Shown here piece by piece: positions 16,198-37,894 of a stretch of DNA of 64,000 nt (position 1 is the first letter of the stretch; every line of letters starts with the position of its first letter). Where the stretch lies: positions 6,534,976 through 6,598,975 of the forward strand of contig NC_049990.1 of the NCBI RefSeq assembly GCF_000003815.2, given 5' to 3'. The stretch is from Branchiostoma floridae (lineage: Eukaryota > Chordata > Leptocardii > Amphioxiformes > Branchiostomatidae). Both the position numbers and the translations under genes were made by a program. Under the pieces are notes generated by a model. The model saw only the letters and a list, made by a program, of their open reading frames with translations. It did no database searches and was not told where the DNA came from.

Positions 16198-19100
16198 ATG
16201 ACAACCGAGGTAGAAGCTGAGAAGAGAGGTTCATCATGTGAGTATCAATAAATATATGTCACGTTTTATTGATACATGCTCTGCTAAGTACTGATATAAT
16301 AGACTTACCCTTAAGGTATCAATAACTTGACAGTTTCCATACTTTGGCCATGATATAATTATCACTATCGTTAATGTATTATTGTCTCTTCTTGTAGTGT
16401 CTTTAAATGACAGCTTTGCAAAGTTTGGTATCAATGCAAGACGCATGTTGATACGTAAGGTTATTTTAAAGCTAGTATGAATTAGTACAGATGGTAAGGA
16501 AATAAAATTGATAAATTATAGAACTCGGTCAATGTATTTTTCTACTTGCTTGCTACTGTTTATGATATTAAGGCAAAGCAACCTACTACACAAAACCTGA
16601 TCCTTATGCCAGGCTACAAACTAAAATTGTACAGCACAACAGGAAAAAATAATTCAGTTCTACGTTATGTCCTCTAAAGCATGTTTGAGACTTACTTTAC
16701 ATGAACGTTAAAAAGCAGTCTCCATTTCAATGACTTCATGTGGAAGCAGTGCATGTCTCAGTTGAAGCAGCCTCTCTTCTATCTCTTCTGGAGCCGGTCT
16801 GGTATCTGGAAGATCGCGCCAACACCACCTCATCAGTCGGTACAAGTCCTCTGGACATCCCGGCGGCCTCTCCATCCGTCTTCCTTGCCTCAGAATCCCT
16901 ATCATTTGAAGAAAGCTCAGCTGAATTTTGCCATCGTAGCAGGGATCTTTCCCCAGCGTGGCGATCTCCCACAGCAGCACGCCGAAGGACCAGACGTCGC
17001 TCTGACAGGTGTACTCGCCGGTCTCGATGGACTCCAGTGCCATCCACTTCAGCGGAAGGAGTTCATCAACACCTATACGGTTGCATCGGACATACTGAGT
17101 AGTGGCGTAGACATCTCTGGCTAGTCCAAAGTCAGCCAGCTTGGCCACGTCATCGGCAGTGATGAGGACGTTGCGAGCGGCCACGTCACGATGGGTGATT
17201 CTCAAGCGTTCCAGCTCTTGTAGAGCTCGCGCTATGTGGACTGCGTATCCAAGAAGGTGTCGAAGTAGTCCTTCCTCATTGATGTTCCCAAATTGTCGTA
17301 GGAAACCCAAGAGATCGCCTTTGGAGGCATATTCCAGAAGAATGTACTTCTCTTTAGACTTGGTGATGAGTCCCACAAGTCGAACAATGTTGGATTCACC
17401 ATAATCGCCATCTCGTTGTTGGTGCACAGCTACCAAAATGGCTGCTTCTCTGTAAAAGTCTCGATAGGACTGCGAGTCCTCGACGCGAACTGTCTTGGCT
17501 GCAACGGCGAGCTTTCCCTTAGGTGTGCGCAGTTGTGCCTTTCTGACTTGCCCAAACATCCCTTCTCCTATCAGTGGACCAAGAGTAAGATGGCGGATCT
17601 TCTTCTCCCAACGTCCCAGCCAGCCCGGCTGTAGACTCTGTGCTAGATCCTGCTCCATTCTCCTCAGCTCGAAAAGTATCTTGTCCTCTTCGCCTGTGTC
17701 TGTCACCGAGCAAGCCATGATGCCCGTTTTGTAGAGTATGGTCATCACTATGGCAGCAAGTAAAACTAAAGAGCCCATCGGGACCAGACTTTCGAGCAGC
17801 GGTTCATCTGTGCTTGTCTCCGGTGTGCTTCGTGTGCTCCGAATCTGCTGACATAGCAAACCGAACCGACCGTGTTGACATGGTTTGCTACAATTCCTTC
17901 CGTACCACCCGGCAGTGCATTCGCACTTGCCGTTGCCATGGTTACAGCTCGCGCCATTTTGACAGCCACAGTTCCTTGCACAGTCTTTACCGTACATGCC
18001 ATGGGGACATTTTGTCTGACACCTGGTTCCTGTCCATCCCGGCGGACAGACACAACCAGTCCAGCGGTCACAGCTGGCACCTTGTAGGCAACCACACACT
18101 TCATCACATCGATCACCTTTTCTTTTTGGAGCACAGTTGGTAACATTGAGCACAAACGTGGTGTTGAATGTGTTTCCCTGGGTGTCTCGGACCTGGCAGG
18201 TGTAGGGTCCGTTATTTGATGAGTTTATGTTCGGAACCAAAAAATCAATCTCATCAGCACCAAAGCTGACGTTCTTTGTTGCATTTGGATATATAAACGA
18301 CGTGTATTCAACATCAACGTGGTGTGCCTTGCAATGAAATGTGACATCTGAAGAAATGTAGATATGTCGAGGATCGCTAGGTGTCGTCGTGATTGAGACG
18401 TCCTGTTTGGGAATGTCACAGGCGACGCCTCTCCAGCCGGGCGGACATTTGCAGGCACCGTTAAACCCGTGGCAGCGGGCACCGTTCTTACAGATACAGT
18501 TTTTATGACAACGTAAACCGTATTTTCCAACTGGGCAACCCACTGGATTTATGTCTATGTCCAAATATTCAAACGTTGCTGGTATTGTGATGCCATACTT
18601 TTGAATCGTAACTTCTATGTCCGGTGGCACGTGGCAAGTATACGATCCTGTTTTTGTTGTAGGAAATGACAAGGACCACATTACTACGATGTTGAGATCT
18701 CTGCGATCAACGAAAGATTCAGGAACATCCTTTCTCAAGGGATCAAGTGCCGGGGTGTCTTCCCACCACTTAAGATGATATAAATCCATAAAAATGCTAG
18801 GTAGTTTGGAATCAGAAGTGCATGTCAACTGGTATATGCCCTTGACCATCATGGCTTGCAGTGTTGTCTGGAAATCAGGGCGGGTGTCAAACGAAATCAC
18901 ACGGACGCTACAATCGCTGTTGTCTGTTTGCACCTGCCATTCGACAGGAGTTCTAACTTTCCAGAGGTCAGAGGTGTTACTATATGTCCGACTACCAATT
19001 ACAATGTCTCCACTTGTTGTCAATACTTCTCCACCCACTTGTAATCGGAATAATAAATCTCCCGGCCCACCGATAGGCTTGACCGGAGTTTCACACGTCT

Positions 19101-22100
19101 CGTTATACACAGGAGGATAGCCCTCAACGTCACTCAACTCTACGTTAATGCTCGTGTTCCGATGAATTTTCAGCTGATATGTCGATTGTGCTGACCGGTC
19201 CAGTGGGTTGGAGACCACAATGTCACAGTTCTTTGTCACATGAAAGCGGCCGTGCGGATCTCCCTCCACTTTTGCACACGGAAGTTCCGCTCTTTCTCCA
19301 GTCAGGGTCCCTGGTAGGCTAAAAATGGTCTCTCCGACGGCGACGTTTTCTGGTACGGTAACGTTAAAGGTTGGACTTTCAGTAGAGACGCATAAGCACA
19401 GTTGCAAGCAGCATGTTACAACCAGTAATCTCAGAAAACCTGTTGCCATCTTTTAGAGTCTGTCCTGTATAGTAGCGGGAAGTTTGACAGCAAGAGGATC
19501 TGAATAACTTCTCTGAACGGTCGTGTTCTTATACACCTGGAGAGCGGAACCAATATTTGACTTTAGGTATTCATCAGGAGATGCAAATTTGCTATAGAGA
19601 GCTTACATAATACACTTCCTCATCAGGAGGTTCTTTATGAATCATGAATTACCCGCAGCAGTGCTTTAGTGCTTCTTCTTCTTTTTTTAAGTGCTGTTTT
19701 CCTATCAATGAAGTTTTTTTCAAAACTTTGAACAACTTCTGTTCTAAAGTAAAGGAACTGCACGAGGGTACATATTGTTTGTTCCCTCGCAGAGATCAAA
19801 CAATTCGTATTCACGTGTACTAATACACAGGTCAATATTACGGTATTTTAAAGGGGAAATTGGGTCTATGTACCCGGTACCGTCTTACTGTTTTCCTACC
19901 GAACGTGACATATTCCAGGAAATGTACACTCACAACAGTGTTGGGGAGATCCCCTTAAAATACAGCGATAGAAATAACTCACGTCAGGTCTTTTTTTAAG
20001 CAATTGGAAGAATTCTTAGAATATCAAATGTTGTGACCAAAGGGGAGGAACACTATCTTGGCTGATCTGCTGCACGTAAAATGACGATTAATAGACAATC
20101 TTCTTTACGTTATAATGTGTGTAGGCATCGCAAAGGTTTAAATTCAAACAATATGAAAATGCCTGTACTTTCTGCCTTACTAGGATTGAGTATATCTTTC
20201 ACTTCTTTTAGGGAAAAACGAATCCTGGAGAATCCTACAAGAGTATATTGGACACGAGGAGTTTCTTAAGAGGAGAAAAGAGTCAGTCAAGGTATTATAA
20301 TGTTTAGCATCACGACCCTTCTCCTTTTATCGATTTAAACTGATAAAACATCTGCACATATTCCCATTAATCTTTACTAATCTTATCATATCTAAAATAA
20401 GCACTTTCACGGTGCTGAGTACCCATCTTGGAATTGTGGATAATATGTCAAAAGTGAAGGCCCCTAAATGCTTGTAAACAGTTTCTGTCTTCCAACATTG
20501 TCCCAATTTGTCCAGACGAGACTTATTTATGTGTCAGGGGCCTTCACCTTTCATGTGTTACCCATAATTCCTGTCGCTGTACCTACGTACTCGAAACCGC
20601 GGAGGTTCTTTGTCATTGAACATTGTCATTCAGTTTCAGTTTCAGTTTATTTATTTATCCAGGAAAATACATCGCCTATTGGCGTTTTTCAATACCTCCT
20701 GGGGGGCCGGGAGACCCCAACATAAAATAACACAAAATCACAACAACTGAATCAAAATTTAAATCAAAGGTCAAACTTAAATAACTAAACGTCAGGTGTC
20801 AACTATTTACAATACAAATAACTCAGGATAACTTAATATAATGATGGTAGTAATAATAACAATAATAACACATTCAGGCAGTGGATCAACTTAAAATCAA
20901 AGTAACGAAAAGTGGAATTTGCATATCAATGTGTCGCTGGTCGGGCAGTGTTTGTTTCAAAGTCGATTTGCAAATGAAAAATAACAGTCAGAAGAGAACA
21001 TAAATGTCAGTCTTAGCATCAAAACATAATACAGAAATCAAACAAAAGGATCCACTGTGATATGACAGGAACTAAAGTTAAAATATATACAATCAGAATC
21101 CTTTAGTCCTGGTCATACAATCGTTTAAACTGTGACAGTGTCCTCGCAGATCTTAATTGGGACGACAGGGAATTCCAGAGCACCGCCCCTGAGTATGAAA
21201 AGGCTTTCTTTCTATATTCAGATTTAGCTTTAGGCAGCAGGAGTCCACCTTGTGATCTAAGACGGGTATTATGTGTGTGTATTTCTGAGAGTTGGGAGAA
21301 CAATGCAGTAAGATGGGGAGGGGTCATGCCGTTAAGTGCCTTGAAAACGAGCGTTGCCTTACTTCTTTTATGTACATCAACTATTTGGACCCATCCAAGA
21401 CTACGTAAGACGTTTGATGTAGAAGTATGGCGATCGTACCCCATGATCACGCGACCAGCTCTAGTTTGGAGTTTCTGTAGTTTATCCAGACTTCCTTTGC
21501 CCCCTTGATCCCAGACAGTGCTGCAATACTGTATGTGTGGGAGAAATAGGGCTTTGTAAATTGTGAGCAGCGCCTCTCTATCCAGGTAGTGTTTAAGGTA
21601 CTTCATTATTCCGATTATTTGAGCTAGCTTCTTGTTAAGATGATCACAGTGATCATGCCACTTTAACATGTTGTCAATAATGACTCCAAGATACTTGAAT
21701 TTATCAACTTGGTCAAGAGTAGTGCCAGCTAAAGTAATATCTAATTCAGTGTTAATGTCGTTTGCTCTTGACGAACCCACTAACATCGTTTTACATTTCG
21801 TGGGGTTTAACGACAATTTGTTAGCCGCAAACCACTGGGAAAGTCTGGCTGAGTCGCTCTGGATGGCCTGCTCAATTGCCTGTACATTGCGTGCCGCGAA
21901 GTAAATTATCGTATCGTCGGCATACAGTGCAATCTTACAGAGTTGCATGCAATTTGGTAAGTCATTCACATATATGATAAACAGAAGTGGGCCTAATATT
22001 GACCCTTGAGGGACTCCGCAGGTGACATTGATAGCTGAGGATAGAACTGAGTTAATGCATGTATGTTGTATCCTCCCAGTCAAGTATGACTGGAACCATT

Positions 22101-25100
22101 TGCAAGCCATGTCATCTGCACCGTATTGTTGGAGTTTACGTACCATTATGTTGTGGTCAAGGGTATCGAAAGCTCGAGACAGGTCACAAAATACCACTCC
22201 GGTTAATTCCCTCTTGTCAATAGAGCTTACCCACTCCTCAATCACCGAGTGAAGCGCTGTCTCACAAGAGTGTTTCTTTCTGAACCCAGACTGGTACTGT
22301 GTTAAGAGTCTATTTTGGGTCAGATACTGATATAGTTGATTGTGGACAGCTCTTTCAAGTATTTTGGATACCCCAGATAAGAGTGATACAGGGCGATAGT
22401 TGCCAGGATTTGTTTTGTCTCCTTTCTTATGGATTGGGACGATTTTGGACTGCTTCCAACTTTCATTGATTTGTTATCCCTTCTACATCTGACAGAAAAG
22501 TGACAGCTTTGCGGAGAAGGAACGGGCGCCTGCTGAGAACGTCAAGTCAGTGAGTACCACGTCTTTTGGTCGGAAAGCTAAACGTCCAAGACACAGAATC
22601 TTAACCAGGAGTGATAGTAAATGACGTTGTTTGTGTCTCCCTTTATACTATTACACTGTATTATGTATATTGTATTGTATTGTATTGTATTGCCTTTTAT
22701 GGTATTGTATTGTGAGGTCCCGTGTCTGGGGAGAGCCATACCCCAGGCACGTTAAAGAACCCCCACACGTGCGATGGTGCGGTGTGCGTTGGTGCAAATC
22801 CTTCTGTCGAGAGTTGGTGATTCACTACAAATCACCCGGATGGAGGCCTGGCGAACCTCTGTCTCTTATCAGCCATACGGTGATTAACATCATTCACCCG
22901 GACGGGAGACCTGTCGCATCCCCGTCTTGTAATTAGCCAGCGAAAGGGTATGTCACCCCGTAAGGGGCGGTATAACCCTGTCGTTTGTAAGCACGTCGAC
23001 CGATGATGGTGATGATTGTATTGTATCCTACATATACTAGTAGATTATTAGGATTTTTAGTTTTGATTAGCTTAAAAACCAGTTTTGGGCTCCGTGTCCT
23101 TAGCAGCATAAAATGTAAAATGAATCTGTGTGTTTGTGTGCTAGTTTGCTAACTACATACTTTTCCAATTGAGATTATGATTACCATTCTTCTCTTAGTC
23201 TTTTCAGACCTTAGTCCCAGTAAAGCCACTACTAAAGCAGCCGGATAAGGCGGCACTGCAGACCAAGCTTCAGAAGCTGAAGCTCTCCGCCGTTGCAGGG
23301 ACCGCGACCGCCGCCAGGCGGGCCTTCCACGCTCCGGGTATCGGTGCCTCGGGGTTCGCTGTAGTGGTCGACAACGTGAAGTTTCCCGAGACCGACTTCT
23401 TCCGTCCCCGCACCGTGTTTCCCGTCCGCTTGCGGCACTCCAACTGCTGGAGCGCCGACGACGCCGCGGCCGACATCCGGGGCGCCGCCATCAAGTTTGG
23501 CGATACGGACGGGGACAGCTGTTTTGAGCTGGTCATGGATACAGGTTAGCTCACACTGACTAAATCTTTTAAATGACATTCGCGCGCGCATTGATTTTCG
23601 CCTATCCTCAAAACAATTGCAACGACAAATGGTCACATGTGACCCAACAGTATCCTAGCCTGCTTATGCTTGCCAGAGGATCTGTCCTCCAGGGTAAGGG
23701 GCAAATGGTCAGGACATGGGGCCACAGCACCCTTGTTCCTCTCTTTGAACATAATTGAAATACATACTGTTCAAAACTTACCACAGTCTTTTGATAATAA
23801 AACATGACTGTATAACTACCAGATATCAAATTCAAATATATGGACAGTTTGCATTTGACGTTTTTTATTCTAGGCACGATGGCGCCATTTTGGAACCTAC
23901 CTTCTTACGAAGAGTACGTAACAGCGATGAAGGGCGGGCCGGAAAAGCTGCAGGAATGGTGCTGGAAAGCTCCAATGAAGTAAGGCTGTATCTATCGAAG
24001 AGATAATGTTAGTTTAGATAAGAGAGGTGTCTACGCATGTACAGAGTCTATATTTTCGATGTGTCTAGAATGATGTAATAGAGAATTATGTTTCGATGTA
24101 ACTAAAGCAGACCATAATATAGACATACAACGGTTAGCACGTCTATGTAATGCTCTGTTTTTATTCAAATGTCTTACCCTACACAGAGAGAGCAACATGC
24201 TACTTTAAACGTAACGGACATACAAAACGACAGAGGCAGACAGAAAACTAAAACTTCTGACTGTGTAACATTTGCTTAGAGATTTGAAAGTTTGTTTACC
24301 TGCCGGTTTATATACATCCAATCTCTATTACCAGTTACTATACCCTGGTGGACGGTCTACGCAGGGCGCCCGACTCCTACTTCCAGCTGGTCTACAGCTC
24401 CCAGACCTGCTTCACCTTCAAGGCGAAGGACAACGTGCCGCGCTACGCCAAGTTCAGGATGATCCCGACTAACAGTGAACCGGAGTCCGGACTGTTGAGT
24501 CTGGACGAACAGAGACAAGCATGGTGAGTACTAGTACTTTAAGATGGGTTCCGTACACGTGCGTATAGATTCAAGTCCGCAAGAGGTCCGTTTAAATTCG
24601 TAGCCTCTACCTACTACCAGGCTCCACAGGTCGCTGAAAAATTAGACAAATATAGACAGATAACATGCCAAAGGAGTCGCAAACCACACTCCTCGGACAG
24701 CTAACTCCTCTAGCATGGTATGTACCTATATTCGTACAATTTGTACTATTTTTCCAACGACCTGTGGAGCCTGGTGAAAACTAAGACTTCCATAAGGACC
24801 TCACACGTACTTGAATATACACTCACGTGTGAATCCAACTTTAGCTGGTGCGATACGCCAAAGGTCGGTTACAGTGCGAACACATTCGTCACAAGTCGTC
24901 GTACGATTTTGATGTCATATGTTTTTCCAGCAGACTACGACAGACCCAACCATAAGGATCTATGACAGCCTTTTCTCTAACAAGACTTTTAGATTTTGTA
25001 CTAAATATGCACGGCGATCGTACGATGGATGTTATCGGGCAGTTAGTAGACCTGCCTATGCTCCAGGGCTAGGAGTCTATGGTCTTATGGCCGAATACGT

Positions 25101-28100
25101 AAAAATGGAGCAGTATGACAATACCCATGAAAGCTCCTTGCAAAACCACATACTGCTACCCCTAGTGACTGTGAATAAAGTTCCTGTGTGCGCAGCCATT
25201 TTGTTTTCGAACTCTTGTCCGAGAGCATGCTGGGTAGGCGAAAATGCTGTAATAAAACTACTTGGAACATGAACGTATGTTGTCATAAACCGCTTCATAC
25301 ATGAATAACGACTATTATTTTGGCACGTATCTGACTAGGAACACGACACGGCTGCCAGAGGAAGAACGTCCCCAGAACTATCTCCGACTTGAATATGTAG
25401 AACGACTGGTGAAATCTTCCATCCAATACCGTCTGCAGCTGCAGCTGCACACCAAGAAGGCATCCGACACAGCTAGCACCTGCAACCCACACAGGTAAGC
25501 ACATACGCAGGTACGCAATTTTTAATAAGTCACATTACAGCAATTTCAGATACGTTTGGAAATAAAAGTGACGGTATGACATTGGCTTCAACAAGTCGTG
25601 TTTTTTACTACAACGAAAAAATACTTATTTGCTTTACTGAAATATAGGACCCTTTCAATGATTTTACTTCTTGATGAAGGTTCAACCAACAACAAGTCAT
25701 AAGGATAGCTAGTTGGGAAGAACACATTTCTATAGTTTTTGTTAGATGTACAGAAGTGGAACAACCACAAAAGTTCTACAATTACTTTCAAATTTAGGCA
25801 AATAAAGACATATGTAGCGTTCACGAAAGGGAGATTGCATCATAGACACAAACGTTTAATGTTGACTGTCTTCATTGCTTTCGGTTTGTCATGCTTTTAC
25901 ATAAAGAACAGCGTAGATATTGCTTCACTGTAAAGAGCTGCTTAATAATGCATTATGGTTTGTAACCGTTACAATTGTTGAACTTAAAAGTTTGACTCCT
26001 TTACAGGTGTTGGGCACCCTTGGACCATCCGTGGTATGACGTTGCTGACGTCATCATTACCACCCTCCTGACCGACAACGTCACGGCCAGGACCAGCTTC
26101 CACGTCGCCAACCTGCCGTCATGTTTGAGTCTGATCGAACCCGAGTCCGTGTTCGACTACAACAGCATCAACTACATCCGGGCCAAAGTTTACCCGGCGG
26201 CACATGCAGCTAGACTCGCAAAGTACGTCGTCTTCGATAAGGAGTTTAATGGTTCTAATGTGGCATGGTCTGTTTACAACTTAGGGCGCGGTTACAAAGG
26301 TCGTGTGGTCGTCGTACGATTGCTAACTAAGTGTGAATCAAGTATAACATAAAGAAACACGGAGATCTGAATTAAATCAAAGCAGTGACCTAAAAGATAA
26401 TGAAGAGGGGTCAGAGGTCATAAAAATTATGTAACACAAATTGAAAGATTGTACAGTAATGTGACTACAACTATACTGGGATAGCGTAAATAAAAAAAAC
26501 ATCAAATTATTATAACAATAATTACATAACTAAGTGGGTGGAACTGGCAAGAAAATGAGCACGGAATACTATTCACGGAAGTGATCGTATTGTGTTCCAG
26601 GCTGAAAGGACAGCGTCCTCTCCGAGGTCCGATAGAGTACGAGACTCAACCCTACAGCGTGGAGATGCGCCTGGGGTCGAAGCAGGGCATGCTGGGACTG
26701 AAGAGGCACCTGAAAGTAGTCTTGACCGGACCTCATAGACGCACGGAGCCCACAAGTTTTTCAGAGGTTGCGTTCGAATTCCCTTTCAAACTCGTGATAC
26801 GATATTCGATTAGAAAATATATCACAATACACGCCACAGTTCATTTCGGCTTCCTTTTGGAGATTATGCACCATCTTTAGCGACAGTCCTGACCTTCAAA
26901 GGAATAATCATGAAGCAAATAACAATTTTAGTTGTAAACACAGGCCCTTCATCTATGAGTACCATATGCCTTTTGACTGTCACCAGATATAAAATACACC
27001 CAGGTGTAAAATAGGCTGGCTTTGGTTGGGGAGGTAAAAGGCGGTGGAAGGAGAGAGATGGGCTCCGCCTTCCTATACCGTGTGCTAGACACAGTGGATA
27101 ACAACCAGATGCCCTTACGGCATCATCAAATAAGGCTATGCGAGTAACTTTCTCTCGCCTTTGATTGTTTACCTTTATCTTAACTTTTATACCTCTAGGG
27201 CTACAAGACGGGAAACTCCCAGGTGTTCTCCATGACTGCCATAGATGTGGGTGAGGTGCTGATGGTGACCATCTATAACGAGGGCGGGCAGGCGTGGTAC
27301 ATGGAGAGCATCGTGGTGGAGGAGGTCCGGCGGGGAAGGTCCAGGGAGTTCCCGGCGCACAGATGGGTTAACGACATGGTCATGGTGCGGAGGGGGAAAG
27401 GTATATGTACATCTAATATATCAGCTATTTCCAGTGGGTATCTGTATTCAGGTGGTCCAGTGTACTCTCCAAGCAGATCCTACCATAGCCATAAGATAGT
27501 ATCAAAGCTGACCAAAGGTAGCCGGCTATTTAAAAAGGGAGTCAGACGGTTCCCATTCACACTCCTAGGCCCAGCTTTTGATACTATCTTCTGCTACCGG
27601 TATACCCTAGGATCTGCTTGGAGATTAGGTTCGGTGGTTTTGAACCTACCTACAGCTGTAAGCACAAGTTGTCATTCTTTTATGAGCTGGTATTAGATAC
27701 TTTAATAGTACTATCGGAAACTCCCAATGAATGCAAAGAAGGGTTTTAGAGAACTTCACACTTTATTGTATTCTTCTCTCAGCCTCCTTACTAGCTACAA
27801 GCTACGCGGGGTTGGACATTCTTCTTGGCCAGCGCTTATTCGAACTGCAAGAGCGTCGGAGACACTTCCGGTGGCAGCACTCTGATGCAGGTTTTCCCGG
27901 AAGGTTGGCTGCTGGCAGCGTCAAAGAACTACCCCCAGAGGTTCGTCCCAGCGAGAGCATGTTACAGAAACTGTCAGGGATAACCGAAAAGCTTGCGCTG
28001 CCGCAAATCTGTCTCAACAGCCCTTGTCTCATGAAGAAAGACAAGGTGGAGAACTTTGTCGAGTTCAAGAAGATGGTTCCGGAGAATGTTTACGATCGGC

Positions 28101-31100
28101 AACGACTGATCAAGCACTGGAAGTCAGACGTGGTGTTCGGGAGACAGTTTCTGAGCGGGTTCAATCCCCTGACGCTGCGCCGATGCCGAAAGCTCCCGGA
28201 GACGTTTGCGAGGAAGATTGATGAGATCGATCAGCTGCTGCCCGATGGAACGTACTTATTGAAAGAGATAGAGGTGAGACTAATAAGGTCTAGTGCTACT
28301 AAGGCCTTCACTCTGAAACCGAATTAGATTTAAATTTGAAATGGATTGCTGTTTCGGTTCTCCATCGAATGAGATAAGAATGTTTCAAATAATGTTGGAT
28401 TGCCGTAGAATGCGGTCATACTACAGTTAGAGTAAACTTGCCGTTCGATATGCCTTAACTTCAAATGCACATTGAAAGTTTTGAGCATTACAAAAACATT
28501 CAGGACGGCCCCAACAATGGGCAAAAAATATCTGGAACGCAGTAAATTTTTTTAGAATGCACTAAGAATACCCAGGAATATGCATAGAATCTCCATTCTG
28601 ACGGCATTCCGCGGCTGATTCCGCCTAATTCTCATGTGAATGGGCTTTAATCAACGACCTTTGTTTATCGTCCTGCGTTCTTACCTTCTCCCTTAGTTGG
28701 CGCTGGCCAACCGTCAACCAATCAGAAACGTCAGCTGTTGGAGTGAGAGTTATCAGCCAATCGCGTCGCCTCTTGACCGTAGGCGGCGACGTGATTGGCT
28801 GATGACGGTTGGCCAAAGCTAATGCAGCGAGGAGCACTGGTCAGAGGTAGATACGCATTAACGTTGCTTGACATATGCCAGCGGAAGGCTTGACATGGGA
28901 GCATAGAGAAAACGTGACACTTTTCATTCATTGTCCTCTAACATTTTCTGTCTCCACTCCATTTCCCAGGCCGGGCACGTGTACATGGCGGACTATGGTG
29001 TACTGGGCGGTCTCCGGGGCAACATCAGCGGCCGAGACGTCTTCCACCTAGCCGCACCAACCGCGCTGTTTCATCTAAATCCGGCCGGAGACATGATTCC
29101 ACTGGCCATACAGGTGGGGTATTAAAAAAAGAAATTTGTTCTGTGTGACATTCATCCTTTCATGCCAGCCAATCGCGTCGCCACCTGTAACCTATGGACT
29201 GAGTTTGGTAGATGCTATATGTATTAACATCGTGCTTCATTGAATTAAAAAACAGCGTATAGCCGCCATGTTGGTGGGTTGGCCAGATCCAAGATGGCGA
29301 ACACACAATGATACTATCAGTGGCCTTGCCCTCTCTAAACATGCAGCAGAGGCAAAAGTACTAATGTTTAGTGAAAGGAAAATCACCTACGTTCTCCAAA
29401 TACCACGTCATGATTAGTCTACAATGTATAACACACCAACATGGCTTACTAATAAATTGATAACATTTTCATGTCAGGAGAGGAGAGGAAAGACGTGTCT
29501 ATTTGTTTGTTTACTCATTTATCAGTTTGTTTGTTTGTATGTTTTTGTTTAGTTATACCAGAAACCAGGCCCCCACACAACCATCTGGACCCCCGCAGAC
29601 CCCCAGTGCGACTGGATGCTCGCCAAGATGTTTCTGCGCAACGCGGATGCGCAGGTATGAGTGCATGAATTGCTAGTCGTCATTTTACATTTTTAACATG
29701 TGTGCAGCCAATTCCTTGTCAAGGTTTCCTTCAAGATCTCTGAGATCAACTTTTACCAAATAAAGTCTACTTGTGCTCGAACTTATTTGGAAAAAACTCC
29801 AGGAAAAACGTTTGACAACACATAGGTGATTCACTGTTTTAGGAATGAAAGTTTATGCAACCCATTATGCCAGACATTTTTCCGCTTTCCAATTAGAAAT
29901 AAGATCTAGAAATTTGGCGTTCACAGCCTCAGGCACTGCGAGCCCTTTCAAAACTCTGCACTGTTTTTCTCAGGTCCATCTGTTTGTTTCTCTCTTCCTC
30001 AAAACGAATCTACTGAACGAGACGTTTGCCGTCGCCACCTATCGACAGCTTCCGTCAGCGAACCCTGTCTTCAAACTACTGGCTCCCCATCTGCGGGGCG
30101 TCTTCGCCGCTAATATCATCGCGAGAAGAGAAATGCTAGAGGTTTTTGTTTCACCTTTTATACGTATTATAGCTCCCGAGTCTCTTTTGTCCTCTGCGCA
30201 GAGGACAGAAGAGACTCGGCAGCTATACTACGTCTGGATACCAGGCTACTTTTAACTAATCAATCAATAAATCAATAAATTAATAAATTAATCAATCAGC
30301 CAATTAACCAATCAATAATTTGACGCACGAAATAGCGAGTGAGATTTATAAGAGAAAAGCGGACATAAATTACCCAATATGCATTATTTGAGACGTTATC
30401 TATATTCATCTACGGAAGTAGAATGCGTTTGAAATAAGACGAATCTGAATTTTTTTATAGAAGTACATGCATGACCGTTATCATCTCCGAGTTAAGTTAT
30501 GATGACAACTCATGACGTTATGGACAGATTGCTAGATTGCTATAATGCGTGATGTACACTTTCATAGTAAGGGCTTTACATTATGAAGAACCCAAGTTGG
30601 AACCCAAGCGGTCTCTTCAAAAACTACATGTCACAGTATCCTTATTGTATTTTTCATTGCCGCACAGGAATGGTCTGTTATTGATGACGTCTACTCCCTC
30701 GGGCCGAAGGGACGGCGGACACTGATCGCCAGAGCGTTCTCAAAATTCACGTGGCGAGAACTGGTCCTCCCGGCCTGGCTACACGACCGTGGCCTGGACA
30801 AACTGCCGGAGTTTGTATACCGTGACGACGCCATGAAACTCTGGCGCGCCAGCAGGTGATACAAAAAAAAATATTCTACCGCAAGAAACAAGTCGGTTCG
30901 CGGTTTAAACTGCGTATGCGTGAGGCTAAAGGTGACGGCCTCTAACTTGTAAAAGTTCTTATCTAGACAGTGCTTGACAAATATTCAGACGTGTTTCATT
31001 TATATCACAGGGGTCTTCAACTTTGATATGTTGCAACAATGCATCACACTGCTAGTTTCGGCTAATTTCTAGATGATGTATCAACTAATTCCCAAGCAGA

Positions 31101-33444
31101 TGTTGAGGTGGACGTTCGTAGCGTGCATTTTAACATCTGGCCTTTTCTGTTAGACTGTCTGAGGCCCAGCAATCATAAAACGTTATAACGTTACAATTTT
31201 CGACCTTCAGATGCTTGGAGATTAAATATCAACGTCTTTAAGTAACCAAATCTTCCAGGTATCATTTATATGGAAAATGACGGATATTACTTATGAGAGA
31301 AAAAAGTAATTGAATTTTTGGCCATCTCTGCTTTATCGATATCCTTCTTCAGCTTCGAATAACCAACCACTCAAAAACATGTGACCTGAAAAAGATAGGA
31401 ACATTACAGCTGAGTAATAATTTTTCTGCTTAATTTTTGCCAAATCTATCTGCAGAGCGTTTGTCGACCGCGTGGTGTCGCTGTACTACGAGTCAGAGGA
31501 AGACATTGCCACAGACCTGGAGTTGCAGGCGTGGATCAAAGATCTCCATGACAACGGTTTCAACTGGGAGAAAGACTATCCCTCAAGTATGACGTGTTAC
31601 CAAGTCATTGATAACGTTATATGTGGATATACTCTAGACATTCGATTTCTCTTTATCTCCATATATGCATGTCTGTTACGTACAGTTCGGGCGAATGTGA
31701 AAACTATATTGTTTTCACCTGCGGTTATGGGCGCTGCCATCTTAGAATGTGACGTCTTGTGAGCGCCATCTTGTTTTCGTTTCCGCTTGTTGGCGTCACA
31801 CCCATGTCAACCACAACTGTTCTACTAGTTTCTTTGCCTAAACATCTACTGTGAATTATTCTTTTATAAAAAAAACATGGTTCGTTAGCCAAGAATGAAA
31901 TGTTGCCATCTATTCAAAATTGATTCGGGCGTCGTTGAAGAGGTTCATCAGTCACGTATAGGGCTGGGTATCGGTACAGCGTACCGGTACAAAACCGTTT
32001 TTTCTTATTGGACCAGTCCAGAAAAACCGGACCTGAAAAAATTAGGTGGACCGGATGTTGGACCGATTAGAAAAACAGATTATTTTATCAGTCATTCACA
32101 TGTTTTGGTGCTTGCAGGTGGAAGAAAATAACAAGAGTGAAGTAGAGGAGAGTTTATAGTAAATTTCTACCAAGTTTTACAGCCAATCGTACAGGTGCAG
32201 TTAGCATTGTAGGATTTTAAAACGCCAGTGTAAGTCTAATACTCCACCAAACAGATTTCTTTGTAGTGAAATGGACCATGGTATGAGTCATACTGCATCA
32301 GGTCCAGGTTCAGGTCCGGACCTGGACCTGATCCTTTGGACCTGAACCGGACCTGGACCTGAATTTTCTGTACCGGTACCCAGCCCTAGTCACGTATGTT
32401 TACAGTTACTATCAATTTTCTTCGAACAGTGACTATTCATTAAAGGTACAGAACGTACCTCCAAATTTTCGATGTCTATCAGTACATCTTGGATGTCATC
32501 CATATAATCAAATATCCATATAACCATATAATCATGGCCTTATGAGATTCGCCAAAACTCTAGATATTTCACAGATGCGTGAGATCTTTTCTTTCTTATT
32601 GCAGAAGTTCCAAGCCAACTCACCACTCAGACTGACCTGGTGGATCTGGTCACCGCCATCATGTTCAACTGTTCGGTACAGCGCCGCGCACTGACTGCCG
32701 GGATGTGTGACATAGCCACCTTCATTCCCAACGTCCCTTTCGCCATGAGGGCCCCTCCTCCAACCAGAGAGGCTAGCGCTGAGGTCTGTTATTTATTTTT
32801 GTTATAATCATTTAGTTTTTTTCTTTACCAGCCAGAATTTGTGTAAAACGTCTACTTCGCACATTTATTGTAAGAATATTTGTTTTAATTAAAAACTATC
32901 TTGAAAGTTTGTCGATTAAGGTTAGACATCCAGGTAAAACGATTCGTCACAAAGCAGTTGCTCAGGCAACTAAATATGATTTTGAAGTCAGACGTTTCAG
33001 ATAGAATTCACTATTTTTCGTCAGCAGCAGTAGTGTTGACAATTTATATGGTACACATGACGATTTTCACACAAGCAGTGCGCAATGTCACTGTACTAGC
33101 TGTAGACAACGTTATAACGTTACATTTGCTGCTTTCATCCGTGGCGTAAACCTGTAGCTTTGTATGTTTTTTTAGCCAAGTCGCGAAGGTCTGCCCATTA
33201 GCTCTGACGACGAACAGGAAGAGGGTCTGACGAGAGCGACCAAACAACAGCTTCTTTCCACTCTACCAGACAGGGACACCGCTAGGAAACAGATAGCCCT
33301 GGCCACGGCCATGTCAAAAGTCACCGACAAGGGGGTAAGCCTCCCTTTTCCATACTTTCCAAGCAGACGCTTTTTCTAAACGTTTTTAGGCTTTTTACCT
33401 CCATGGAAAATAGAGGTATAGTTTTTAGTGTGTCTATGTGTGTG

Positions 33445-33475
<31 letters not shown>

Positions 33476-36400
33476 GTGTGTGTCCGGATATTTGTGGTCA
33501 GCATAACTTTAGAACCTCTGAATGGATTGTAATGATATTTGGTATGTGGGTAGGTGTTTGGAAGACCAAGGTCAAAGTGGATTTTGGGCCCCTTGGTGTG
33601 TGACCTTGGTACTGCAGCAGAACTTCGATTTTTTGTATCTTTTGACCTGAACATAATACAGTGCAAAGAAAGTGCAAATTATGCAAATTTGGAAAATCTA
33701 TATTTCCAATATTTTCCATTATAGGACTCAAATACATGTAACAGGTAATTTGTGGCAGGTAGAAGATTACCAGATACCAATTATGCAAATAAGCCGCTAA
33801 TTTGCATAATAAATGTGAAAGTGTCCTAATTCATCTAAGTACATGTAGTAAATGATTGGATTGTCAACATTTTAACCTGTGTAAGTTATCTAAAGGTGTG
33901 CATAACCAAGCATAAATTATGCAGATGTGCAAGTCATTTGCAAAATCATAATATTTCATGGCCACTCCCAACACACATAGTCACAGCACCTACACTTGAT
34001 TCCTTCAAGACGGGGCTGGCCCAGCACATGGGCCTCCTCAACCCATTGATATAACTTGATCTGTTTAGTGTGGCCGACACTTCACAATGTTTTTCACTTT
34101 TTGTCCCCGTTTATTGATTGCACCTATTGTTCTTAGGCACCACCACCGGCCACACTACCGCGCACCTCCCTGGCCGGGATACCCCGTAGTGTGTTTTGGC
34201 CAGTATTGATATAGATAGATAGATATAGATAGATAGATGGAGGTATGAGGTCTCTAAACTCTTGTTTTAACCGGCTTTCTATGTTGTACCGTTTTGATGA
34301 TGTCTCGCCGGAGTCTAAACTCTGCTTGGAGAGTACCTTTTCACTACGGGGTGATTGCCGGGCGAAAGGGTAAAGGTCACGATTATAAGAATGCACCCAG
34401 GATCCACTTTGAGTTCTAGCCTGGAGTTCTGGGAAATGTAAATGGTACACGGGTGCATCTTATCGTATTTTATGACGCCCTTCATGATGCTGTGCTTTCC
34501 TTTAGCGTGTCTTGACATTTCTTAGCATTTCCCAAGGCCGTTTAATTATAAGGCGGTAACCCTAGAGGTGTAATTAAGGAAGCTATATATAGACGGGTTT
34601 TACAGCGAGCCATTTATTTCTCGACTTATCAATCGATTCGATGGCACCTCGGGAGACTCTTGCATTTTCTAATGATGGTTATTACATTCCTGAATGATAA
34701 TTGCAGTGACAAAGCGCCATATGTGAGCGATATGCTTTTATGATGCTTATTTGCTGCATTCCTCTTGAGGTAAAAACGCGGCTAAGGAAAAACGCCACAC
34801 TTTGATAGCATAGTTTGAATAATCACCGTAGACAAGGCGGTTTACCTCCGAAGAGGTATTGTTTTCGGTTGTGTCTGCTAATTCGCACTTGACTCAATAT
34901 CATTTTGGTGGATTTATATGAGTTTTAAAAGGTGGGTAGTTATTGAATGGCCAAAAAATAGCGTCCCTTTAGCAGTATTTGCCAACATTGTAGCATTACA
35001 GGTGTGTACCCCTTCCCGAAAGTAATGTGGTATAGCTAATAGACAGCGCTAGCTGTTCTGTCCCAATAATGTAGGCCAATGGGTTTTGGACACCTGGCGT
35101 GGATTGGGACTTGTTGAGCATCGACTGTTATAATTAGTCTCTACTGATTACTATAGGGAGAATAATTTGCCAGGGGAGTGTTGCGACCAAAGGACTTGGT
35201 CGGCCGCGGAGGGGAAACATGGACCTTATCGTGAACTGGCTCCCCTGGCCAATTTCCCAATTTTTGGGGGGTCGAATTCTACGATCCCCGTACCCGTGCA
35301 GGAAGGCCTGGTGGAGGCTATCGCATAATAAGGCAAAGGCTATCACGGTAATAATGAATGATCAAAAATTCACAGAGACATGGATGGGACCTTTGATTTC
35401 TTGTTACATGATATTGTACGGTTCACATATGACAAATAGTGTCACAAGTAAACGGACACAAATCAGGAAAAAAACGGAACGTGGGAATGTCAGCTGCGGA
35501 GCCCCCTGTTGGAAATTGGTCATCTGATCGACGTCCAAAAGAACTCTGATTTCCCGACGGGGCTACGTTATTACGTTAGGAATAATCATTTAACGTTAGT
35601 ATGAGACGACCAACAAATATGTCCGGCCTTAAAATGTTCTAACTGCGCACGAGGTGACGTCACAGATTAGATGACGATCTGATTGGCTGTGATCGATGAT
35701 GATTCATTTGCATCCCGAGCCTAGAACAATTGTCTTGAGATTGGAAAGGAAATAAAACGTTGGATGGCGAAATAAAACAGACTTGTGGGTGGAATTGAAG
35801 CATTTAATTAGATGTGAACCCAAACTATTGAACAGAGCAGCTCAACGGTAGTTGTACCACAATTTGATACTCTGCTCAAAGGTCACTGTCTTTTTGGCGA
35901 CGTCTTAGCTACGGAAGCATTTAAGTTAACCATTTCTCTTCGAATCTTGTGATGAAGCAATGCCGTGAAGTACCAGTACTAATGGCAGCATCCAAGGAAA
36001 TTTATTTACTTATTTAGTTATGTATTCTTTTACCAGACAGAGTAAGCTTCCATCAGTGACTAGCACTGCTATCAAACCGTAAACAAAACACTGCAATGTG
36101 CAGTACTGCCATATATCATATGGTCAAAAGTTGCACTTCGGGGTGGCTCGTTATGACTTGTATGACACAATGATTTATAGAGACGCACTTGCATGCTGTA
36201 CAATGACGTTAACAACATTGTGCAATAACACGTACATGCAAAAAAACTGGAACACTCTCCCTACTGCTACGCACACAGCCACCTCCACTGCTTTCTTCAA
36301 AAGAAAACTGTGGGAATGTTTAGGCGACCCTTACACATAGTCATACACGCGTATATACAGACCCTGACCTCTCATAGCAAATATTGTTGTTGACAAGTGA

Positions 36401-37894
36401 TGTTATATATTCCATTATAGATAATATGTATGTCATCCTACACAATATATATAAATGTTCTTTTTTTGTTTTCATTCCTATCCTTTATGAACTTAGAAAA
36501 TTGTTATTGATAAGTATCCTGTCCAAGTTGAAGTTTTTAATTGTCATTCAACACGACACATTGCTCACCTCGAAATTTCACTCGCACATTCGTCGACCTT
36601 TGTCAGGAGTGGTGTCACGTGTTCAGAGTACTTGAATCACCACTCCTGACGGAGGTCGACGGATGTGCGAATGAACTTTCGAGGTGTGCAATTTGTTGTG
36701 TTGACTGACAGTTTAAAAATCCATTTAAGCGTTATGTCATTGTGTTCCTCCACCAGCCGATGCTAGGTGAGTACCCCGGGCGCTACTTCACCGATGAGCC
36801 GACACAAGCCGCCATCTCTGACTTCCGCCGAACCCTCAAACAAATATCCCGCCTCATCCAACAGAGGAACAGAAACGTAGGTTCAAAACCGTTCTCGTGT
36901 GTAAACAACTATTTTAAACTGTTATAAGCCACTTCGTTGTTTAAAAAGTGCATGCGAGAGGTCAAAGATGAATGCCAATAGCTTACTAACAAGCCTTGTG
37001 TAGACCATGCGTAACTCAATGCATGTCCAGAAATGCTTTGATAATGTCTTAGTCGCCTCCAACTTTGAAATATTCCCAAAAATATTTCATACTGCGCATG
37101 CTCAATTGATACCATGAACCAGTTTATTGTGGACATGGAGTCACATGCAGTTTATTACCCCTATTTCACTTAATATCCACTTTGTTAATGTATACCATTC
37201 AGTATCATTATCATCATTGTACTTTCATACATGTATTTTTGCAATTAGCCTTCGGGCATGAGCTTGCAATAAAGATTTATTATGACTACTTCCATTGCTT
37301 TTAAGCAGAAAAAACGATAAAAATAATTCGTACAAAATCTGTCTAAAGAACAATTGTCCCTGCTGAATAGTTCCTGTTAACTGTGAAAAATACAGGTTTA
37401 GCGAAAAAGCAATTTAAGGAAACGCTTGTTGTTGTTTGATATCTGCATGTGACTCCATGTCCACAATCAAGTGTCGAATCAACGGACTGATCCTAAATGT
37501 CCATCGCAATTAGCAGTCCAACCAATGGCAACTTGGAATTTAAGCGGTTCCACAAACGAGAGACTGGCAGTATTTGCGTCAAATATTTACATTTTCACGT
37601 TTTGTTTTAAATTTCTAAGATTTGAAGGCTGTGGTCTATGTCATCTGTCTATTGTTGTTACTTCCCCGACATCCTCGACTACGGAGAAACAGCCATGATG
37701 ATGATGACTGTTGTTACCTCCATTTCCTATTCTTTGTCCAGGCGAGGGGCATAGTTGCACAAGAACTTGTCGTGTCCTTTGAGGGAGCCTTCAGTGAAAT
37801 CCCCAAGGTGGCAAAGAGAAATACCGAAGTGCATCGTGCCGTGCCTTACGAGTATCTGCTGCCCGAACACATACCCGCCAGTATCGGCCCGTAA
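16198..37894 (+). CDS. Catalase-related heme domain (AOS-like) - PLAT - pseudo-lipoxygenase fusion protein
   Basis: Twenty-one exons, continuously in phase: 16198-16237, 16398-16454, 20212-20291, 22496-22549, 23208-23544, 23874-23979, 24335-24523, 25339-25494, 26007-26222, 26601-26766, 27199-27400, 27783-28273, 28970-29113, 29553-29654, 29974-30141, 30668-30855, 31456-31586, 32605-32783, 33176-33334, 36757-36876 and 37742-37894, about 1,145 residues. Order and length match the octocoral allene oxide synthase-lipoxygenase fusion (known family, about 1,066 residues), in which the lipoxygenase makes a fatty acid hydroperoxide and the heme domain turns it into an allene oxide. Distal His118 and proximal Arg398/Tyr402 are present, but Asp188 replaces the distal Asn. 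All five lipoxygenase iron ligands are replaced (Leu787, Asn792, Arg969, Thr973, C-terminal Pro). Exons 1-4 are small and rest on splice signals, phase and weak similarity to the coral N-terminus; exons 5-21 are firm. No signal peptide is seen. Confidence 0.85.
16708..19449 (-). CDS. Receptor tyrosine kinase with Ig-like and EGF-like ectodomain, single exon
   Basis: A 913-residue type I receptor in one uninterrupted frame. Signal peptide 1-22; residues 23-300 are a beta-rich region with a cadherin-like start (SPTFNVTVPENVAVGETIF). There is an EGF/laminin-type module at 305-345 (CPVGKYGLRCHKNC), an Ig-like domain about 353-436, EGF-like modules about 439-533, a membrane segment about 555-573, and the kinase at about 620-905. 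The kinase has the glycine loop GEGMFGQV (628-635), VAAK (Lys652), HRDVAARN (753-760), DFGLARDVY (773-781) and KWMALES, so it is predicted active. The EGF-Ig-EGF pattern recalls Tie and other amphioxus-expanded receptors; orthology is not assigned. ATG context is AAAGATGG. It lies antisense inside intron 2 of the heme/lipoxygenase gene. The lack of introns suggests retroposition, unproven. Confidence 0.92.
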   Translation of the reverse strand: MATGFLRLLVVTCCLQLCLCVSTESPTFNVTVPENVAVGETIFSLPGTLTGERAELPCAKVEGDPHGRFHVTKNCDIVVSNPLDRSAQSTYQLKIHRNTSINVELSDVEGYPPVYNETCETPVKPIGGPGDLLFRLQVGGEVLTTSGDIVIGSRTYSNTSDLWKVRTPVEWQVQTDNSDCSVRVISFDTRPDFQTTLQAMMVKGIYQLTCTSDSKLPSIFMDLYHLKWWEDTPALDPLRKDVPESFVDRRDLNIVVMWSLSFPTTKTGSYTCHVPPDIEVTIQKYGITIPATFEYLDIDINPVGCPVGKYGLRCHKNCICKNGARCHGFNGACKCPPGWRGVACDIPKQDVSITTTPSDPRHIYISSDVTFHCKAHHVDVEYTSFIYPNATKNVSFGADEIDFLVPNINSSNNGPYTCQVRDTQGNTFNTTFVLNVTNCAPKRKGDRCDEVCGCLQGASCDRWTGCVCPPGWTGTRCQTKCPHGMYGKDCARNCGCQNGASCNHGNGKCECTAGWYGRNCSKPCQHGRFGLLCQQIRSTRSTPETSTDEPLLESLVPMGSLVLLAAIVMTILYKTGIMACSVTDTGEEDKILFELRRMEQDLAQSLQPGWLGRWEKKIRHLTLGPLIGEGMFGQVRKAQLRTPKGKLAVAAKTVRVEDSQSYRDFYREAAILVAVHQQRDGDYGESNIVRLVGLITKSKEKYILLEYASKGDLLGFLRQFGNINEEGLLRHLLGYAVHIARALQELERLRITHRDVAARNVLITADDVAKLADFGLARDVYATTQYVRCNRIGVDELLPLKWMALESIETGEYTCQSDVWSFGVLLWEIATLGKDPCYDGKIQLSFLQMIGILRQGRRMERPPGCPEDLYRLMRWCWRDLPDTRPAPEEIEERLLQLRHALLPHEVIEMETAF
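19450..20211. other. 5' flank of the receptor gene inside intron 2
   Basis: This is the likely promoter side of the minus-strand receptor gene. No open frame of note and no convincing TATA box were seen. Confidence 0.4.
20430..20572. mobile_element. MITE-like inverted repeat (family B)
   Basis: The left arm contains aatatgtcaaaagtgaaggc and the right arm (20535-20572) is its imperfect complement ending in cccataattcc. Related to 2381-2497. Confidence 0.6.
20631..22473 (-). mobile_element. 5'-truncated CR1/Jockey-like non-LTR retrotransposon with intact RT core
   Basis: The minus-strand frame from about 22473 to 21103 encodes most of a reverse transcriptase: KIVPIHKKGD, NYRPVSLLS, QSGFRKKHSCETALH, TGVVFCDLSRAFDTLDH, GVPQGSILGPLLFIIYVNDL and the catalytic LYADDTIIY, then a thumb and C-terminal region. 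The endonuclease is missing. The 3' UTR runs to a short AAACTG repeat tail (CAGTTT on the plus strand at 20631-20648). The broken 5' end is about 22 bases upstream of predicted exon 4 of the host gene, and the element is antisense to it. The frame looks open, so the insertion is fairly young. Confidence 0.9.
22662..23030 (-). mobile_element. Non-LTR retrotransposon 3' UTR fragment with an ACAAT-type tail
   Basis: On the minus strand the sequence contains gtgtgggggttctttaacgt and ends in ATACAATACAAT repeats (22662-22690). I recognise the motif as typical of invertebrate repeats with such tails; family assignment is uncertain. It lies in intron 4 of the heme/lipoxygenase gene. Confidence 0.5.
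23208..26222 (+). other. Catalase-related allene oxide synthase-like heme domain (exons 5-9)
   Basis: RRAFHAPGIGASGF (His codon at 23328) matches the catalase distal motif VVHAKGAGAFGY. FPVRLRHSN and DIRGAAIKFGD follow, as in catalases and coral AOS. LVMDTG has Asp (23538) where coral AOS has VMNTG and catalase GNN. IRAKVYPAAHAAR (Tyr codon 26191) matches the catalase proximal RLFAYPDTHRHR. The distances between these three sites (70 and 214 residues) fit the coral enzyme. Catalase's extra N- and C-terminal parts are absent, as in AOS. Confidence 0.85.
24524..25338. other. Intron 7 of the heme/lipoxygenase gene
   Basis: It holds fragments of dispersed repeats (gtcgtcgtacgatt near 24895, also near 26303 and 57005; cagccattttgttttcga near 25194, also near 14725 and 31767). 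No coding exon fits the phase. Confidence 0.4.
26601..27400 (+). other. PLAT domain of the fusion protein (exons 10-11)
   Basis: YSVEMRLGSKQGMLGLKRHL opens a PLAT beta-sandwich. The second exon has SQVFSMTAIDVGEVLMVTIY and FPAHRWVNDMVMV, the usual end of lipoxygenase PLAT domains. In this family PLAT helps calcium-dependent membrane binding; whether the calcium ligands are kept I cannot say. Confidence 0.8.
27467..27623. mobile_element. MITE with ctccaagcagatcct inverted ends
   Basis: The left end ctccaagcagatcc is inverted at 27610-27623, and an inner pair, agatagtatcaaa, is also inverted. It fills about 40 percent of intron 11. Confidence 0.7.
28705..28814. repeat. Nested hairpin in intron 12
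   Basis: An outer pair (ggccaaccgtca and its complement) encloses a stronger inner pair, atcagccaatcgcgtcgcc with ggcggcgacgtgattggc. The core agccaatcgcgtcgcc recurs alone near 29165 in the next intron, so it is a dispersed repeat rather than a unique structure. Confidence 0.6.
30163..30247. mobile_element. Palindromic MITE, third copy of the hairpin family (left end clipped)
   Basis: Arms tagctcccgagtctctt and its complement surround cctctgcgcagagg. The right end ccaggcta is intact while the left 16 or so bases are missing. It starts about 22 bases after the exon 15 donor of the host gene. Confidence 0.75.
31959..32388. mobile_element. hAT-like non-autonomous element with a perfect 8-base target duplication
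   Basis: Inverted ends tagggctgggta(t/c)cggtac, 18 of 19 bases alike, with gtcacgta on both sides (31951-31958 and 32389-32396). The 8-base duplication is the hAT hallmark. It lies in intron 17 of the fusion gene. No transposase. Confidence 0.9.
32490..32541. mobile_element. Relic end of MITE family A
   Basis: The sequence ggatgtcatccatataatca and the terminal atggcctta match the right end of 1409-2261 and 53937-54255. No matching left end was found. Confidence 0.5.
33430..33482. repeat. TG/TCTG microsatellite
   Basis: A run of gtgtgtgtctgtctgtctg type repeats in intron 19 of the fusion gene. Confidence 0.9.
33960..34245 (+). mobile_element. 3' end of a CR1/L2-like non-LTR element
   Basis: The plus strand encodes APTLDSFKTGLAQHMGLL and a stop, a typical retrotransposon reverse transcriptase C-terminus, followed by a UTR and a tail of atagatagatag repeats at about 34208-34240. 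Only the last part is present. Confidence 0.6.
34246..36097. other. Central part of intron 19, no recognised feature
   Basis: No exon that fits the lipoxygenase frame and no clear repeat ends were found in this 1.9 kb. Confidence 0.4.
36220..36340 (+). mobile_element. Relic non-LTR retrotransposon C-terminus
   Basis: The frame ending at 36340 reads NWNTLPTATHTATSTAFFKR then KLW and a stop, the usual WNxLP...FKxxL end of CR1-type reverse transcriptases. Nothing further upstream is recognisable. Confidence 0.5.
36533..36720. mobile_element. Foldback MITE with about 80-base arms
   Basis: Left arm 36533-36614 and right arm 36637-36720 are imperfect inverted copies (acctcgaaatttcactcgca against tgcgaatgaactttcgaggt). 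It ends about 36 bases before exon 20. Confidence 0.75.
37126..37467. mobile_element. MITE with perfect 25-base inverted ends in intron 20
   Basis: The 25 bases at 37126-37150 are the exact complement of 37443-37467. The inside has no coding potential. Confidence 0.75.

Follow-up and report, generated by a model that had tools for sequence, protein, structure and literature searches.

The locus and its gene model

The window analysed here is a 64,000-nucleotide stretch of the Branchiostoma floridae genome (NCBI RefSeq assembly GCF_000003815.2, contig NC_049990.1, positions 6,534,976 to 6,598,975 of the forward strand), and its own numbering is used below. Its plus strand carries a fusion gene (Table 1) whose spliced model comprises 3384 coding bases including the stop and encodes a product of 1127 aa. 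Every junction follows the AG/GT rule, the exons are in phase, and the frame is open over its full length, with no internal stop in the lipoxygenase exons or elsewhere and a single terminal stop. A first-pass annotation of this DNA had described 21 in-phase exons; the phase holds throughout, but the model has 20. Exon boundaries were picked by eye at AG/GT consensus sites, several donors are weak, and exon 1 lacks support from a paralog.

No exon that could restore the metal ligands discussed below was found within the window. Of 91 pieces recovered by tblastn with seven relatives, 88 overlap exons of the model and the remaining three lie elsewhere, while a ligand-motif scan of both strands returned two strings (at 13405 and 11140), both outside the gene.

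Two of the introns contain other coding sequence on the minus strand. Intron 2 holds an open, single-exon, antisense gene for a 913 aa receptor tyrosine kinase-like protein (PK_Tyr_Ser-Thr, 1.7e-66; Ig_2 above its cut-off and EGF below its cut-off), and intron 3 holds a retroelement reverse transcriptase ORF (PF00078, 4.8e-27).

Table 1. Features of the fusion gene, its introns and related loci (window numbering, except for the last six rows)
Feature	Position	Strand	Basis
Coding exons 1-7	16198-16237, 16398-16454, 20212-20291, 23208-23544, 23874-23979, 24335-24523, 25339-25494	+	AG/GT splicing
Coding exons 8-14	26007-26222, 26601-26766, 27199-27400, 27783-28273, 28970-29113, 29553-29654, 29974-30141	+	AG/GT splicing
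Coding exons 15-20	30668-30855, 31456-31586, 32605-32783, 33176-33334, 36757-36876, 37742-37894	+	AG/GT splicing
Heme domain (catalase-related), exons 4-8	23208-26222	+	1u5u, E 2.5e-80, query residues 34-394
Phe-His at coral Thr66-His67	23325-23330	+	alignment
Asp at coral distal Asn137	23538-23540	+	alignment
Arg...Tyr at coral Arg349/Tyr353 (proximal heme site, kept)	26179-26193	+	alignment
PLAT domain, exons 9-10, without coral FHNDFE and tip-loop residues	26601-27400	+	alignment with solved structures
Lipoxygenase domain, exons 11-20	27783-37894	+	PF00305, 166.7 bits; 3vf1, E 4.3e-105
Leu at first His ligand	29992-29994	+	alignment
Asn at second His ligand	30007-30009	+	alignment
Arg at third His ligand	32682-32684	+	alignment
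Thr at Asn ligand	32694-32696	+	alignment
Exon with acidic insertion	33176-33334	+	alignment
Last exon, with insertion of ~30 aa before the tail PYEYLLPEHIPASIGP	37742-37894	+	alignment
Terminal Pro	37889-37891	+	spliced model
Receptor tyrosine kinase-like gene, intron 2	16708-19449	-	
Reverse transcriptase ORF, intron 3	21103-22245	-	
C12 fusion (sister)	near 12.36 Mb	-	genome search, spliced model
C11 fusion (L045/L046)	near 13.80 Mb	+	genome search, spliced model
C7 minus fusion (L047/L048)	near 0.555 Mb	-	genome search, spliced model
C7 plus fusion (L049-L051)	near 0.583 Mb	+	genome search, spliced model
Catalase-related heme ORF, bacterial contig L052	3393-4580	+	
Lipoxygenase ORF, bacterial contig L052	5918-7564	-	

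Homology and domain layout

A phmmer search of PDB aligns nearly the whole product (query residues 34-1078) with the coral allene oxide synthase-lipoxygenase 3DY5 (E 4.6e-183, 613.8 bits), in agreement with the earlier proposal of a heme domain, PLAT and lipoxygenase in the octocoral order in one chain. In a Pfam search only Lipoxygenase (PF00305, cut-off 23.6) was recovered, and neither the PLAT nor the catalase families reached 0.001; the PLAT and heme domain assignments thus come from alignment with solved structures. The PLAT-lipoxygenase part also matches coral 11R-LOX (E 4.3e-105) and human 5-LOX, and a profile built from three heme domains reaches weakly to ordinary catalases (best E 7.7e-06).

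The lipoxygenase domain carries two insertions. Of the eight rows compared, only the window gene and its sister paralog C12 have the acidic one, the coral 3DY5 row stopping before it; of the rows that reach the last exon, again only these two have the insertion there. The coral, 11R-LOX and ALOX5 rows of this eight-row alignment are the matched parts rather than whole chains.

The lipoxygenase metal site

Ligand positions were read in an alignment with human 5-LOX, two coral enzymes and four paralogs. Where human 5-LOX and both coral enzymes have H, H, H and N, the window gene has L, N, R and T. The first-pass annotation had concluded that every iron ligand was lost, including a fifth at the C-terminal Pro, and the four side-chain losses stand. 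The product does end in Pro, in place of the terminal Ile of 5-LOX, but the fifth iron ligand of lipoxygenases is the main-chain carboxylate of the chain end, and the number of residues following IP.S is the same in the window product and in the 691-residue 5-LOX chain, the ~30 aa insertion lying ahead of the tail. Because the ligand is the chain-end carboxylate and the tail length is kept, we do not count it as lost. The surrounding motifs FGRQFLSGFNP, YRDDAMKLW and PVFKLLAPH are all present, as described earlier.

For comparison, non-fusion lipoxygenase loci were defined by the lack of an adjoining heme domain in the heme-domain and PLAT-lipoxygenase genome searches. Among all such loci within the at least 48 exon matches of the genome lipoxygenase search, 21 of 21 carry H at the third ligand and N at the fourth, and the second His is present in 17 of 17; the first His is present in 9 of 17, the other eight exons starting after it. 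Based on the residues at its metal site, the window lipoxygenase domain is almost certainly without dioxygenase activity.

The heme site and the PLAT stretch

In the coral enzyme, Arg349 and Tyr353 are the proximal heme residues and His67 the distal one; all three are kept in the window gene, with the changes Thr66Phe, Lys107Trp, Asn137Asp and Leu150Tyr around them. Two marks of the coral-type class therefore differ: the Thr-His pair at 66-67, reportedly called a hallmark in the title of a paper, is Phe-His here, and the distal Asn137 is Asp. Passages of PMC5617202 on the coral enzyme describe His67 as starting hydroperoxide cleavage and taking hydrogen, and Lys107 as the proposed holder of the substrate carboxylate. 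The window heme domain probably binds heme, to judge from the residues retained. Its reactivity is doubtful because Thr66, Asn137, Lys107 and Leu150 are changed, and the chances that the protein is a peroxide-reactive heme enzyme appear evenly balanced. The earlier suggestion that the heme domain takes its hydroperoxide from elsewhere is thus only partly supported: it presumes a working allene oxide synthase, and although His67, Arg349 and Tyr353 are retained, the four changed positions weaken it.

The coral PLAT stretch FHNDFE and loop GGYWSGDPDW presumably serve calcium and membrane binding. They align with SE-GYK and GG-QAW, respectively, in the window gene. FHNDFE is also lost in the C12 and C11 fusions described below, while the C7 minus and C7 plus fusions have FFDEFE and FMNNFE. 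If the stretch does bind calcium, membrane docking would be less likely in the window gene than in the C7 pair, and membrane docking as a reason for keeping the lipoxygenase domain, suggested at first pass, is weakened.

A family of fusions with altered active sites

Genome searches (513,431,437 bases in 431 contigs) that used the heme domain and the PLAT-lipoxygenase part as queries identified at least four further fusions, so the family has at least five genes, each changed at one or both active sites (Table 2). The first pass had described one of these genes. The two C7 fusions lie in opposite orientation, about 9-12 kb apart.

Table 2. Residues at the two active sites of the fusions and of reference sequences
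Sequence	Coral heme positions 66/67/107/137/150/349/353	Lipoxygenase side-chain ligands, then chain end
Coral	T,H,K,N,L,R,Y	H,H,H,N
Window gene	F,H,W,D,Y,R,Y	L,N,R,T,P
C12	F,D,R,H,F,Y,Q	Y,H,N,T,P
C11	F,H,N,A,F,L,I	H,H,R,A,P
C7 minus	L,H,T,N,A,N,H	H,H,H,N,R
C7 plus	S,H,I,V,L,K,N	N,Q,Y,N,V
Bacterial L052	S,H,L,N,F,R,K	H,H,H,N

The metal site is damaged in four of the five fusions, and only C7 minus keeps all four side chains; C12 and C7 plus each lack three of the four and C11 lacks two. The first two ligand positions of C7 plus adjoin a one-residue gap and an intron. A wrong splice site hiding its ligands was considered and rejected, as the 720 bases around the exon pair contain no HxxxxH frame.

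On the heme side, Thr66 is kept in none of the five and Asn137 only in C7 minus. Arg349 and Tyr353 are unambiguously kept only in the window gene, which is also the only one to combine them with His67. The Tyr of C12 falls at 349, with Gln at 353, in one alignment and at 353 in another, gapped one. C11, C7 minus and C7 plus all lack the proximal heme Tyr. At position 353 C7 minus shows a gap in one alignment and His in two others, and this His could itself hold heme; a heme motif hidden by a wrong splice site was rejected, no R...Y motif being present in the two flanking introns. A complete coral heme site together with a complete lipoxygenase site occurs in none of the five, and across the family the active sites have decayed partly reciprocally, with scattered losses.

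Outside the genome, one of 64 bacterial pattern matches was confirmed as a relative, and none of four viral contigs was confirmed with an 83-residue query. The bacterial relative (L052), on an Acidimicrobiales MAG contig, has a catalase-related heme ORF and a separate lipoxygenase ORF on the opposite strand; the pair is unfused and the lipoxygenase has all four side-chain ligands (HLFRTH, EHSAVN). Its heme protein has Lys in place of Tyr353, so this Tyr is not universal.

Relationships, introns and evolutionary rates

The five fusions are parted from other lipoxygenases by a branch with support 100/99. Within them, the window gene and C12 are sisters on the full-length alignment (99/98), with lower support on single domains (90/88 for the lipoxygenase, 92/92 for the heme domain). 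The two have in common both insertions (one near exon 18, the other ahead of the C-terminal tail), the Thr at the Asn ligand and the terminal Pro, the last of which is also found in C11. The lipoxygenase part of the window gene is 41% identical to that of C12, 41% to C7 minus and 40% to C11, so that C12 does not stand out by identity in this part. Of its 19 introns, nine are at exactly the same position in C12, five in C11, six in C7 minus and four in C7 plus; another count, of those with no counterpart within three columns in the four paralog models, some of which start later, also gives nine.

Selection was assessed with a codon model with branch-specific omega, in which the window branch was fixed at omega = 1. 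Neutrality was rejected for the 524 lipoxygenase codons (-8696.6 vs -8673.6, a cost of 23.0 log units), the 296 heme codons (-4668.2 vs -4650.7) and the 102 PLAT codons (-1711.5 vs -1706.1). However, dS lies at the bound of the fit on most end branches (all five for the lipoxygenase part) and the omegas of inner branches are implausible; because synonymous change is saturated, we discarded the omega values as numbers and use the rejection of neutrality alone. The dN/dS check proposed at first pass thus goes against neutrality and yields no usable omega. As to constraint after loss of the catalytic residues, the neutral omega is rejected, with dS saturated, for the window branch as a whole, and the constraint on the lipoxygenase domain may lie early on it. 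With the gene open and its lipoxygenase part not neutral over this branch, the sequence supports the earlier description of that domain as a pseudoenzyme.

In the window gene, the lipoxygenase domain is evolving more quickly than the heme domain. On a fixed tree with six rows, the lipoxygenase/heme branch ratio is 1.48 for the window gene, 1.07 for C12, 1.22 for C11, 0.85 for C7 minus and 1.63 for C7 plus, with overlapping 95% intervals for the window gene (1.05-2.14) and C7 minus (0.58-1.21). Out of 100 bootstraps on the same fixed tree, the window gene and C7 plus had a higher ratio than C7 minus in all 100, C12 in 82 and C11 in 92. The contrast between the window gene and C7 minus fits their active-site residues, but the ratio is not diagnostic alone, because C11 and C7 plus, which are damaged on both sides, also exceed 1.

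Interpretation of the fusion

The explanation we favor, with a probability of about 0.65, is that an intact gene encodes a heme domain-PLAT-pseudolipoxygenase whose dead lipoxygenase is kept as a scaffold for the heme domain. The lipoxygenase part would be unable to oxygenate fatty acids and would persist as a folded scaffold, whether as a dimer, a domain interface or a fatty-acid pocket, while the heme domain would still bind heme and react with peroxides. Its chemistry would not be of the classical allene oxide type, because Thr66, Asn137 and Lys107 are changed. The open model, the homology, the lack of a ligand-restoring exon in the window, the C12 sister, the rejection of neutrality and the retained His67, Arg349 and Tyr353 are consistent with this explanation; the saturated dS, the faster lipoxygenase domain (which also fits relaxed constraint), the lower single-domain support for the sister pair, its lipoxygenase identity being no higher than that between the window gene and C7 minus, the altered residues at 66, 107, 137 and 150 and the unmatched introns count against it. 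That the gene is instead a recent pseudogene, or a product of assembly or splicing error, is very improbable. Exon boundaries picked by eye leave some room for error, but all 20 exons are open and in phase, the window offers no alternative exon, the sister gene has overlapping ligand losses and the neutral rate is rejected.

Two other explanations concern what the retained domains do. Both could be non-catalytic, the protein serving as a lipid- or heme-binding regulator or a structural protein, as the altered heme-pocket positions 66, 107, 137 and 150 beside the lost iron ligands, and the lack of His67 in the C12 sister, might suggest. We consider this unlikely, since the window gene is the only one of the five with His67, Arg349 and Tyr353 together and its heme domain is the slower-evolving of the two. 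A further possibility, which overlaps the scaffold explanation and which we hold only tentatively, is a reciprocal division of labor. An ancestral fusion with two functions would then have left its proximal heme side to the window gene and its lipoxygenase side to C7 minus, with the remaining half of each protein retained as a dead partner domain and the two perhaps acting together. C7 minus, with its H,H,H,N site and Asn/His at Arg349/Tyr353, is at these positions the mirror image of the window gene, and the rate ratios (larger for the window gene in every bootstrap, on the fixed tree) point the same way. However, the two genes are not sisters, their single-gene intervals overlap, and the ratios of the doubly damaged C11 and C7 plus are likewise above 1. 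Moreover, His67 and Asn137 are both present in C7 minus, residue 137 being Asp in the window gene; the His353 of C7 minus could hold heme, and the bacterial relative also lacks Tyr353. More speculatively, and with rather poor odds, an ancestral two-function fusion may have been duplicated into at least five genes whose active sites decayed reciprocally, leaving one full-length protein with the lipoxygenase site alone and another with the proximal heme site alone, with dead domains retained and the pathway rebuilt in trans, possibly in complexes where a dead domain forms the docking surface for a live one.

Comparison with known systems

The closest known system is the allene oxide synthase-lipoxygenase of the octocoral Plexaura homomalla (PDB 3DY5/1U5U/2FNQ), which has the same domain order, homology over nearly the full length, and His67, Arg349 and Tyr353 in common with the window gene. 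Unlike it, the window gene lacks the side-chain iron ligands, carries Thr66Phe, Asn137Asp, Lys107Trp and Leu150Tyr, has lost the PLAT motifs, and has one or two insertions (the coral row compared ends before them). Human ALOX5 and coral 11R-LOX match over the PLAT and lipoxygenase parts, including motifs, while the window gene is without their side-chain metal site. The hydroperoxide lyase-lipoxygenase of Capnella imbricata likewise joins a lipoxygenase to a heme domain of altered chemistry but, as passages of PMC5617202 describe it, its lipoxygenase domain makes the hydroperoxide. Branchiostoma is also represented in fatty acid hydroperoxide metabolism by CYP74-clan epoxyalcohol synthases, which are P450 rather than catalase-related enzymes; the passages of PMC8124189 and PMC10813956 that name catalase-related enzymes do so from soft corals and cyanobacteria.

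Among the open-licence papers listed in our searches, none describes the amphioxus fusion family, or an intact fusion gene whose lipoxygenase has lost its whole side-chain metal site. With this family, the catalase-related enzymes of fatty acid hydroperoxides gain a chordate branch. Its partly reciprocal losses provide a natural experiment on the reasons for enzyme fusion, namely which domain catalysis requires and which one structure requires.
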